From NCBI GenBank assembly GCA_963678705.1, contig OY783218.1:15239955-15303954 (forward strand): a DNA stretch of 64,000 nucleotides. Direction: 5' to 3'. The notes under the pieces were generated by a model. It ran no database searches. It saw nothing but the letters and a program-made list of their open reading frames with translations, and had not been told where the DNA came from. Position 1 is the stretch's first letter. Every line of letters starts with the position of its first letter. Source of the DNA: Panorpa germanica (taxonomy: Eukaryota; Arthropoda; Insecta; Mecoptera; Panorpidae). Of this stretch, positions 35,670-40,880 are shown piece by piece. The translations under genes and the position numbers were made by a program.

Positions 35670-37355
35670 TTATATATAATTGAAGTCCTTTTGTCCTTCG
35701 AGAGGCTTGCTGTAGTCAAACTCATCAATTCTCACTTTAAAATCTACCCTAGCATGGGCACCGCGACTTTCTTTCCTATTTTCACACGCAACAATTGTTT
35801 GTCGAGCGCATAACATTAAATTTTGAAGCTCTAAAGTTTCAATTAAATCGGAATTCCAAATTAAACTCTTGTCAGAAATTTTCAAGTTCTTCAATTTTCC
35901 ATAAATTTCTGAGGTCTTTTCGCAACCTTTTTGTAATAAAGTACCCTCTCTAAAAACAGCAGCATGAGTTTGCATAGTTCGCTGAAGTTCTAAACGTAAA
36001 TCTGCTGTGCGAATGTCACCTTTGGAGTGTCGTAAGTTGTCTAAGTTGTCAATAGAAGGCATGCCAGCAGTCTGTGAATTATAAGGCACAAACATATTAT
36101 AATGAAAAAAAAGGGGTGACATTAAAAGTTAATGTTTTACCGGACGGAGTGATCCAAACTTGTCTCCTGGTTTATTTTCAGCCGCAATAGCTGTAGCACA
36201 GGATCTACCAAAGACAACCAAATCCAAAAGTGAGTTAGCACCAAGTCTGTTTGCTCCATGTACAGAGGCACACCCAGCTTCACCGGCAGCGTACAAACCA
36301 GGAATAATCTAAAACATTATTAATGCGGTATATCTTGCAATATTGAAACTTCGTTTTTAGGTCGTACAAGTACAAACCTTGTCTTCGCCGTCTTCGTGTT
36401 TTAAAACTTGCCCCTTAAAATTCGTGGGGCATCCACCCATGTTGTAATGTACAGTTGGTAAAACGGGGATTGGTTCTCGAGTGACATCAACACCAGCAAA
36501 AATCATCGCCGTCTCAGAAATGCCGGGAAGTCGGGAAGCTAATTGTTCAGCTGGTAAATGATGAAGTTGAAGAAGTACATGATCCTTAAGTTCACCAACT
36601 CCACGACCTTAAAAATAAAAAAAATATACAAATTTAATCACAAAAGTAACTTTTAGAATCTTTATAAAACTATATATATAATACCTTCATTAATTTCTAT
36701 AGTCATAGACCTGGAGACTACATCGCGAGACGCCAAATCTTTTGCGTTTGGAGCATAGCGTTCCATGAATCTCTCTCCCTGAGAGTTCACTAGGAAGCCA
36801 CCTTCTCCTCTACATCCCTCAGTAATAAGACATCCCGCTCCATAAATACCTGCATAAGGAGATATCTCAAATCAATTACCTTATCTATATGCAATGGAAT
36901 AAAAGATTAATACTTAATAGCGATTGTATCATTCTAATGCTTTAAGAGTTAAGATAATTAATTCATTAAATCTCATTAATTAATTGCGATATAAATTATT
37001 GATAAGATGTTTTACTTTTTGGAGCTTATCTTTTACAAGAATTGATATAATTTGAACCACAATAAACATAAATGTAGTATTTATATTTAGCGGGTATGAT
37101 ATATTCGTTTTCCAAGAGAATGATAATATCATAACACCTACACTTGTACCTGTAGGATGGAATTGTACGAATTCTAAGTCCTGAGATGGAAGGCCAGCAC
37201 GTGCTAACATTCCAGTGCCATCTCCAGTACACGGGTGTGCGGATGTACAAGAAAACCAGGCTCGTCCGTAACCACCGGTTGCTAAAACTGTGTAGAATAT
37301 CTCCATTCGCATTGCGTAGTTTCTCTAGATTGTCTATTGACGCACTTCCAGCATT
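35670..37355 (-). pseudogene. SDHA duplicated block: chimeric exon 9/5, exons 6B-8B and terminal exon 9B
   Basis: Exon 6B (36849-36685), 7B (36607-36378), 8B (36308-36141) and 9B (36071-35670) are open and correctly spliced, encoding for example [32 protein letters not shown] and [20 protein letters not shown]. Exon 9B carries [37 protein letters not shown] and ends [13 protein letters not shown], about 40 residues short of usual SDHA. Upstream, exon 37355-37150 is a fusion: it starts as exon 9 ([20 protein letters not shown]) and switches to the middle of exon 5 (TTTTAGCAACCGG onward). Its length (206 nt) shifts the frame, so including it would stop translation in exon 6B. Exon 9B is the only full exon 9 in the window, so it may serve the upstream SDHA exons. 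Confidence 0.75.
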
Positions 37356-37575
37356 CTGTAAAAAAATTCTTATACAGTCTACTTCAAGTAATCCCTTAAG
37401 AAAATGTTTGTCCAATATTTTAAAAGAATATTCTGCATCTGGATATAAATTAATGAATATTTATTAAATGGAACATTAATAATGTAACCTATTTTATGAG
37501 TTATAAAAAGAAGTGCAAATAACTATCTAAAAAATATTATTTGTTTTTAAAATATAAAAATTCCAAAAAGGAAAG

Positions 37576-37650
37576 CGCCCAACGTGGGGCTCGAGAACCC
37601 ACGACCCTGAGATTAAGAGTCTCATGCTCTACCGACTGAGCTAGCCGGGC
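37576..37650 (-). tRNA. tRNA-Lys(CTT)-like, 75 nt, with a two-base insertion in the T loop
   Basis: Acceptor GCCCGGC pairs with GTTGGGC. The D arm is GCTC/GAGC, the anticodon arm TGAGA-CTCTTAA-TCTCA (anticodon CTT), and the T arm GTGGG/CCCAC. The T loop is TTCTCGAGC, nine bases, where the normal loop would be TTCGAGC. This breaks the B box (GGTTCTCGAG for GGTTCGA) and the T-loop fold, so it is probably a tRNA pseudogene or an unusual copy. It lies in the intron between SDHA exon 8A and the chimeric exon, on the same strand. Confidence 0.75.
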
Positions 37651-37968
37651 TTATATTGAATATTTTAAGCAGATATTTTCGCTGCAAGTTATTAAATTAG
37701 TTAGATCAAACAAACTTAATCTTCCTAAAACTTCTAAGATGTACTAAATAATCTCTAAAAAGATCCTCCCCTTAACAGGAAGATAATGCCTATTAAATAA
37801 TTCATGAAACGAAGATGTTCTTGATACCCCATCTTACAACTTTCTACCCAACTAATATTACAATCATATTAAGAGTTATGTTTCAGGATATATTCAGGAA
37901 TTCTTTTAAATATTCAACACGCTTAGTAGAGTGATTTAAAAAATAACAAGTTATTAAAAATATATTAC

Positions 37969-40880
37969 CTGACTAAGAGGTCCAAATTTTTCTCCTGGTT
38001 TATTTTCTGCAGCAATTGCAATAGCACAGGCTCTTCCAAAGACAACCAAATCTAAAAGTGAATTAGCCCCAAGTCTATTGGCCCCGTGGACGGAGGCACA
38101 TCCAGCTTCGCCGGCAGCGTAGAGCCCTGGGACAATCTAAAAATTATGGAATCGAAATAACATTTAAATAAAGTCAATAGTCGAAACACTACAAGAGCAA
38201 TACAGTGACAAATGAACAAGATGGCATGGTATTCTTACCTTATCTTGTCCATCTTGATGCGTTAACACTTGGCCTTTGTAGTTTGTTGGAATCCCTCCCA
38301 TATTATAATGTACAGTCGGTAAAACTGGAATTGGCTCACATGTGACATCAACACCCGCAAATATCATAGCTGTTTCAGAAATGCCAGGAAGTCGAGAAGC
38401 TAATTGTTTAGCTGGTAAATGATGAAGCTGAAGGTACACATGGTCCTTTAAAGATCCGACTCCACGACCTGGTGATACCAAATTGTACAATGAATTAATA
38501 CTGTTAACTATCAGAAGATCCAAAACTGTGTTAAAAGTAAAAATACCTTCATTAATTTCTATCGTCATCGATCTACAGACGACATCCCGTGATGCTAAGT
38601 CCTTTGCAACAGGAGCGTAACGTTCCATGAATCTCTCTCCCTGAGAGTTGACCAGAAAGCCACCTTCTCCTCTGGACCCCTCCGTGATGAGACATCCCGC
38701 TCCATAAATACCTGTTCAAAACATTCTCTATTTCAATATATTATATTTCTACGATTATAATCCTAGAACTAATTATTACGTTACCTGTGGGATGGAATTG
38801 TACAAATTCTAAGTCCTGAGATGGAAGACCAGCTCGTGCTACCATTCCAGTGCCATCTCCAGTACACGTGTGTGCGGATGTACAAGAAAACCAGGCTCGA
38901 CCGTAACCACCGGTTGCTAAAACCGTATTTTTAGCACGGAACCTAATTGGTATAAAAATATTTGTTAACATAAATAATTTAAGAAGCACATAAATAAAAG
39001 ATTATAAATACCTATGAATTGAACCATCATCAAGACACAAGGCGATGACGCCCCTGCACTCTCCGTCTTCCATTAACAAATCCAGCGCGAAATATTCAAC
39101 AAAATAATTGCAGTCGTATCTTAAAGATTGTCCGTAGAGTGTGTGCAGTAGGGAATGTCCAGTTCTGCAACAACAATGAATTATCCAAATAAAATATTTC
39201 GTCAACACATTCAGTATTCTGATAATAACAGTAATATCAAGTTACCTGTCAGCTACAGCGCAACACCTGTGTGCCTGACCTCCTTTACCGAACCTTAAAC
39301 TTTGTCCACCAAAAGCTCTTTGATAAATTTTGCCTTCAGGTGTTCTGGAGAAAGGCATTCCATAATTTTCTAATTCTACAACAGCGTGCGGCGCCTCCCT
39401 GGTCATGTAATGGATGGCATCTTGATCTCCCAACCAATCGGATCCTTTTACCGTATCATACATGTGCCATTGCCAATTGTCTTCTTCCATGTTGCCTGAA
39501 ATATATGGGTATCATTTTTAGTCTTTAATCTTTTATATATCATAAACATTTGTAAAAAAACACTTGAGTCCGACAAGTATGTTCCATCGTTACAGGTATA
39601 CCACATATTCTGCTCCGCGATAATCTTATTATATATATAAAAATGCATCATACCCAAAGCAGCATTTAGCCCCCCTTGTGCAGCAACTGTGTGCGATCTT
39701 GTGGGGAACAGTTTAGTAATGACAGCCGTTTTAAATCCCTCAGCTACAAGTCCGAAAGCGGCACGTAGTCCTGCACCTCCAGCACCTACTACTACGGCGT
39801 CGTATTCATGTTGAATTACCGTCCTTTCTTTGGACGTAGTGCTTGTAGTCGTAGAAGCATTGCGATGTTTATTGTATGAGGATTTAGATAATACTGTAGG
39901 CCGCAGCTGAAACACAAATCGAATTAATTAGTTAATTAGTTAAATTGAAGAGCAAAAGGTGGTAGCCCAGGAAACATTTGGTGAAATACAAAGGCTAGGT
40001 ACAGTTCTATTCACTCGTACATTTCAATTCTAACGTTTTACAAGTTGGTGCTACACAACAAAAAACTAAAGCACTACATTTCTACCTTCTGTCAAAACCA
40101 TACGCCATTATTAATTTTTTGTAAATGAATCTAAAGGCCATCTATGATTCCTTGTTGTACCTTTAACATAAATTAATTATTAAGTACGAAAAATGTGGTG
40201 ATTTTCAGAGCCATCTTTTGTTCACAACCAGTATTTTTACAACAAGTGCTTCATAGCAATTCTCTAAACCAATTCTAGTGTTCTACATTTTAGGTGCTAA
40301 TTATTGCTATCATATATTAATAAGGTTAATTTGATTTTGAAAATGTATATATAGTTAATATATTTTAAAATAATGTATGATACAATTCTTTTCCATTGTA
40401 TCCTAGATTTATACAGCACAACTTATTTTAAGCAGGGGTAAGTGCCAAACTCTCGTAACTTGAAGTATAATCATACTTCAATTTCACTATAAAACAAAAT
40501 AAAAAGGCAACGCTTAATCTGCAATAAAAAGTAAAAGTATTTCTATTGCACGGAAAATTCTGTTCCTCAATTATTCTTTCTTGTCTTTTGGTCAGAACTT
40601 TGCAATCTATCTTTAAACTATTTATTTTATAAAAAAGATATTATTAAAAAACGATGAATTACTTGGAAAATTACTAAACGAATACTAATCTTTTTTAAAA
40701 ATTTCTTTTAGTAAATATGAAGTTTATACTCGTATACATGAGATATAAAGAGCAAGAGCATAATATTAGAATTATATAATAAACCGTAATAATGGTTACC
40801 TTTTGCAATAAATATTCGTGGCTTTGTAGGCGTGGTTTGATTCTTAATAGGACCTGACTGCAGGGGGTACAGTCGAGCAT
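37969..40880 (-). CDS. SdhA: Succinate dehydrogenase flavoprotein subunit, exons 1-8
   Basis: Exons: 40880-40800, 39906-39654, 39495-39246, 39164-39012, 38942-38785, 38711-38547, 38468-38239, 38136-37969. All borders are GT/AG and phases agree. SDHA is the FAD-carrying subunit of mitochondrial complex II and oxidises succinate to fumarate. Exon 1 (ATG at 40880) gives an Arg-containing presequence, [18 protein letters not shown]. Visible motifs: [16 protein letters not shown] (FAD binding), [10 protein letters not shown] (the His that binds FAD covalently), [42 protein letters not shown] (usually VVSRSM), HYNMGG and [21 protein letters not shown]. The normal exon 9 following exon 8 is cut and fused to a second exon 5, so the C-terminus could come only from exon 9B at 36071-35670 (phase 0 to phase 0). 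Several substitutions against usually invariant positions suggest a divergent paralogue. Confidence 0.85.
40060..40335. repeat. Dispersed repeat, copy related to 23880-24210
   Basis: Upstream of SDHA exon 2, within intron 1. Shares several 15-35 bp blocks in the same order with 23880-24210, separated by small indels. No coding capacity. Confidence 0.7.

Follow-up and report, generated by a model that had tools for sequence, protein, structure and literature searches.

The 64,000-nucleotide stretch of Panorpa germanica DNA analysed here (the window; C15:15239955-15303954, GenBank contig OY783218.1) carries on its minus strand a locus resembling SDHA, with exons 6 to 8 present twice. Contig C15 is 15,303,954 bases long, in a 464-Mb genome of 249 contigs, and terminates where the window terminates, which makes the window its last 64 kb. 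Comparison with the rest of the assembly leads us to conclude, with a probability of about 0.93, that the locus is a chimeric and truncated SDHA pseudogene, duplicated with its introns and lying in a mosaic block of DNA shared between chromosome ends (a subtelomeric duplicon). No SDHA protein would be expected from it, and a working two-isoform SDHA gene at this place is very unlikely. The first-pass annotation had hesitated between mutually exclusive exon cassettes yielding two complex II flavoproteins and an unequal-crossover product on its way to decay.

The anatomy of the locus explains why it could be taken for a gene. Twelve exon-like SDHA blocks follow one another on the minus strand, with AG/GT at every internal border. 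Exons 2A (39654..39906), 3A (39246..39495), 4A (39012..39164), 5A (38785..38942), 6A (38547..38711), 7A (38239..38468) and 8A (37969..38136) come from one SDHA gene, which we call G1. A chimeric exon of 206 nucleotides (37150..37355) then fuses the start of G1 exon 9 to the end of exon 5 of a second gene, G2, and is followed by the G2-derived exons 6B (36685..36849), 7B (36378..36607), 8B (36141..36308) and 9B (35670..36071). The earlier description of these exons was accurate: exons 6, 7 and 8 are open in both sets with identical lengths (165, 230 and 168 nucleotides), the joins 5A-6B and 8A-9B are both in frame and give 592 open codons, and the chimeric exon shifts the frame, a stop being reached at codon 538 when all exons are read in order.

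Parts of SDHA are missing from the locus. Neither blastn nor tblastn matched exon 1 of G1 or G2 in the window, and the best ungapped placements of these exons there (18 mismatches of 42 and 25 of 54) resemble those in a shuffled window (17 and 26). The first in-frame methionine is residue 87 of the 459-codon frame formed by exons 2A to 8A. At the other end, exon 9B is cut after codon 608, the last 46 codons of G2 (609-654) are missing after it, and its stop codon falls within DNA derived from another contig (related to C4, near 9.69 Mb). The end of the G1 coding sequence (its last 26 codons, unchanged in protein) is found upstream of the gene-like locus, at 40847-40924. The window locus falls short of a functional SDHA, with its start codon and complete FAD_binding_2 and C-terminal domains. 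It has kept the parental introns, and its exon/intron structure matches that of the source genes, as in a duplicated, unprocessed pseudogene. The intron after exon 8A also holds a transfer RNA gene, tRNA-Lys(CTT), predicted by ARAGORN (37575-37650, minus strand). This gene is inherited from G1: it is present in the source and in 10 of the 12 other subtelomeric loci scanned, and was not found in those of C17, which has a 13-bp deletion there, or C6, where the copy ends inside the tRNA.

A full-length SDHA elsewhere in the genome, which the first-pass annotation had suggested looking for, was found twice over. Near 0.70 Mb of contig C19 lie two complete tandem paralogues, G1 (C19:699851-703841, 651 amino acids) and G2 (C19:705436-708402, 654 amino acids), with the same nine-exon layout. 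Their proteins are identical at 545 of 655 alignment columns (about 83%), both match FAD_binding_2 and Succ_DH_flav_C over the full profiles, and with their start codons both have what a functional SDHA requires. The solved mitochondrial SDHA 4ytp aligns with G2 from residue 29 to the end of G2. The residue differences reported between the two exon sets are real and equal the differences between G1 and G2. In the motif DVV(S/C)RSM, the variable residue is C in G1 and S in both G2 and 4ytp; the GGIPTNY of 4ytp corresponds to GGCPTNF in G2. One of the two C19 genes is possibly a specialised paralogue, for example a testis one. A third, diverged SDHA-like gene, apparently with introns, lies at C1:29573635-29574321 (locus L012; seen among the best 12 of 90 candidates).

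The window locus is a rearrangement of these two genes. Piece F3 (35686..37293, minus strand) runs from within G2 exon 5 to within exon 9 and derives from C19:705584-707214 (96.0% identity; 38 mismatches in 1606 aligned bases and 4 indels). Piece F2 (37297..40065, minus strand) holds G1 exons 2-8 and the first part of exon 9, from C19:700329-703075 (96.4%; 52 mismatches in 2735 aligned bases and 15 indels). Piece F1 (40058..40924, minus strand) carries the last 26 codons and the 3' flank of G1, from C19:699129-699931 (98.1% and 97.2%); within it, a dispersed repeat occupies 40058-40365 and positions 40366-40426 have no counterpart in the C19 source. The order on C19 is F1-F2-F3, that in the window is F3-F2-F1, and the orientation is the same throughout, so that two head-to-tail junctions are needed. 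At the F3/F2 junction, C19:707214 is joined to 700329 with three extra nucleotides (window 37294-37296); at the F2/F1 junction, a short stretch common to both sides links C19:703075 with 699129. Between F1 and F2, some 400 bp of C19 sequence are absent. The F3/F2 junction pairs non-homologous positions, G1 exon 9 with G2 exon 5, which speaks against the unequal crossover proposed earlier, while the decay that was to follow the rearrangement is borne out below.

The scrambled block is not confined to C15. We searched the assembly with window positions 35600-40600, which gave 47 listed matches (the best 40 of 1718 candidates), so that the copy counts are lower bounds. At least ten copies are whole (window 35686-40065), on C2, C7, C9, C10, C15 (the window itself), C17, C21, C89, C100 and C203, and eight are truncated (C221, C239, C6, C11, two on C8, C123 and C16). 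On the chromosome-scale contigs C2, C7, C9, C10, C15, C17 and C21, no whole copy is farther than about 33 kb from a contig end, and in all seven the side that bears satellite DNA in the window points outward. Where truncated copies sit on chromosome-scale contigs, their distance from an end is about 45 to 187 kb; inversion is seen in the C11 copy and in one of the two on C8. The block is thus found near the ends of non-homologous chromosomes, as expected of a subtelomeric duplicon. The C123 copy was considered as a spliced one because it ends at window position 36071, the boundary of exon 9B; the sequence beyond is no splice join, and we take the coincidence as chance.

An error of assembly fusing two loci might be suspected in such repetitive subtelomeric surroundings, particularly as one neighbouring locus (C12) ends in a run of N at the junction. 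Yet the F3/F2 junction is common to 13 contigs (the window's and 12 whose copy extends past the junction), several with their own single-nucleotide variants, and, with gaps ignored, the divergence of the pieces from C19 is 1.9-2.5%. We consider this explanation very improbable.

The copies also show how the locus evolves. Compared with C19, the window has 17 synonymous and 3 nonsynonymous differences in its G1 part and 18 and 5 in its G2 part, giving ratios of nonsynonymous to synonymous rates (dN/dS) of 0.05 and 0.08. We then compared the window with 15 other copies (16 in all; C123 and C16 were left out). Coding differences fixed between the family and C19 comprise 33 synonymous and 6 nonsynonymous changes, whereas those that arose within the family comprise 3 and 10 (Fisher p=9.4e-5), and 10 nonsynonymous changes out of 13 fit the expectation for neutral sites. 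This contrast indicates that the constraint was that of the donor genes and ceased at the rearrangement or shortly afterwards; the low dN/dS of the window is accordingly explained as inherited from the donor. Four of the six fixed nonsynonymous changes affect residues identical in G1, G2 and 4ytp (K166R and E361K in G1 numbering, T261P and L530S in G2 numbering). Frameshifts occur in 4 of the 16 copies: those on C2 and C10 share the same 11-bp deletion in exon 8A. In both C8 copies, between which no difference is seen over 1,943 bases, exon 9B contains a 22-bp insertion and an acceptor has been lost. Such changes among sister copies, together with the frameshifts, are the loss of constraint that marks a duplicated pseudogene.

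Several observations weigh against the pseudogene interpretation. The low total dN/dS, taken alone, would suggest constraint, and the within-family ratio is based on 13 changes that are perhaps not fully independent. Twelve of the 16 copies compared, the window included, are free of frameshifts in the exons they hold. Synonymous divergence (dS) is 5-7%, about twice the non-coding divergence of 2.5-2.9% (35686-40065 against C19). Finally, the C19 haplotype that would have been the donor is not among the matches listed, which also include no second unscrambled copy of the C19 SDHA genes.

How might the block have formed? The source would have been a C19 haplotype differing by about 2% from that in the assembly, copied either by backward template switching or through an intermediate that was circular or had undergone tandem rearrangement; the two head-to-tail junctions are compatible with tandem duplication, circular DNA or such switching. 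In a subtelomere, the head-to-tail intermediate would then have been attached to a C4-derived fragment that was there beforehand. Ectopic exchange or break-induced replication between chromosome ends may next have multiplied the block, several copies being truncated anew. We favour this succession of head-to-tail intermediate, joining in a subtelomere and exchange between ends; we do not regard a circle as demonstrated.

The flanks bear on the order of these events. To the left of the SDHA block, positions 34699..35685 are a fragment related to C4:9692106-9693063 (95%), which meets the cut end of exon 9B at 35685/35686. Fragments of this type occur free of the SDHA junction at C16:14412401-14413000 (L038) and C8:20830301-20830900 (L039), within about 85 kb of contig ends. 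These two loci are identical to the window in the last 86 and 106 bases up to and including 35685, respectively, and 98-100% identical to it over 814 bases. Past 35685 both run on as C4 does (C16 is 95.5% identical to C4 over 601 bases), and they are identical to each other over 580 bases. The simplest order would place the C4-type fragment first, with SDHA then joined to it; the reverse is disfavoured because the C4 continuation would have to be restored. On the right, segment 40922..41436 has a 98% match at C3:27710126, a site without adjacent SDHA at 53 kb from that contig's right end, and relatives of 85-92% identity inside C16 at 2.54 Mb. Among the loci found, none joins both flanks as an empty site would; an SDHA-free left side is seen on C16 and C8, an SDHA-free right side on C3.

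The window has captured a second gene piece from C19 (19743-24197, from C19:354569-359389), which we presume to be FAM13-like. Its order is permuted, a simple B-A arrangement with a 2-nucleotide overlap, opened at the A/B border. In Pfam it gave a Drc1-Sld2 match alone, below threshold. Because two pieces of C19, SDHA from about 0.70 Mb and this one from about 0.355 Mb, are head-to-tail and permuted, gene fragments may enter subtelomeres by reinsertion of extrachromosomal circles, the resulting mosaic then spreading to many ends. We offer this idea tentatively. The A part of the second piece is a dispersed repeat, which weakens the case, and for the SDHA block the three pieces, the two head-to-tail junctions and the missing 400 bp imply that a single circle would be insufficient. 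In a variant overlapping with our preferred explanation, G1 and G2 were fused first at C19 by tandem rearrangement, and a subtelomere received its copy of the fused array afterwards. Both junctions are of the type left by tandem duplication. They nevertheless join non-homologous positions, with a 3-nucleotide filler or a few shared bases, so this was not homologous crossing-over, and the assembled C19 contains no such fusion; we see the variant as doubtful, though worth keeping in mind.

A pseudogene may still be transcribed, here as a regulatory RNA against SDHA (antisense, decoy or source of PIWI-interacting RNAs). The copies are numerous, and one report describes human SDHAP1 as proposed to work through a microRNA (PMC10170684). 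Since exon 1 of G1 and G2 and its upstream sequence are not included in the block, and the exons show no sign of constraint among copies, we regard such a role as improbable. The two-flavoprotein cassettes fare worst and are hardly credible: open, spliceable blocks, the in-frame 5A-6B and 8A-9B joins and a low dN/dS speak for them, yet the A exons come from G1 and the B exons from G2, already separate and complete genes, instead of from duplication within one gene; the locus has neither an identifiable exon 1 with start codon nor a C-terminus; its copies gain nonsynonymous changes at a neutral rate, some with frameshifts; and truncation within the block affects 6 of the 15 further copies aligned (those on C239, C221, C6 and C11 and the two on C8).

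At the far end of the window, satellite arrays occupy 51651..64000 and reach the end of the contig, the window being mostly satellite beyond about 51.6 kb. Among the matches listed for positions 1-20000, all are about 2.5 kb or shorter and many are dispersed, and we take the DNA up to about 19.7 kb to be that of C15 proper, as far as such matches can tell. This part contains a kinase-domain exon frame (1318-1695, plus strand), presumably of the discoidin-domain-receptor type. A frame with an RNase H domain at 45442-45894 (plus strand) is likely part of a retroelement.

The locus is ordinary in kind, and its scrambled form is unusually clear. Human subtelomeric duplicons are reportedly duplicated blocks at chromosome ends whose organisation differs between ends (PMC2323237), and in this genome of 464 Mb we see similar end-located blocks of variable organisation. 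The human pseudogenes SDHAP1 and SDHAP2 lie, according to one report, in segmental duplications of 3q29, a region whose deletion is termed subtelomeric (PMC10170684). The window pseudogene is likewise embedded in duplicated segments; unlike these two as described there, it is scrambled, fuses two SDHA paralogues and occurs near many chromosome ends. For segmental duplications with circular intermediates, the published mark is a reversed block order with microhomologies or short indels at the junctions (PMC7450558). In block order and junctions the window resembles the circle-mediated cases (PMC7450558, PMC7188851), and it differs from a single-circle case by its three blocks, two head-to-tail junctions and about 400 bp of missing C19 sequence. 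We found no published report of this locus by title or abstract opening, which does not show it to be unpublished.

More generally, a recent pseudogene can display open exons, good splice sites and even a low dN/dS, and comparison with its sister copies reveals its nature. For annotators, the mapping of SDHA reads in this genome will be disturbed by copies, whole or partial, of which there are at least 18 outside C19. If the circular route is true, insertion of circular DNA would have seeded the duplicons of chromosome ends, and this subtelomere would preserve a trace of it.

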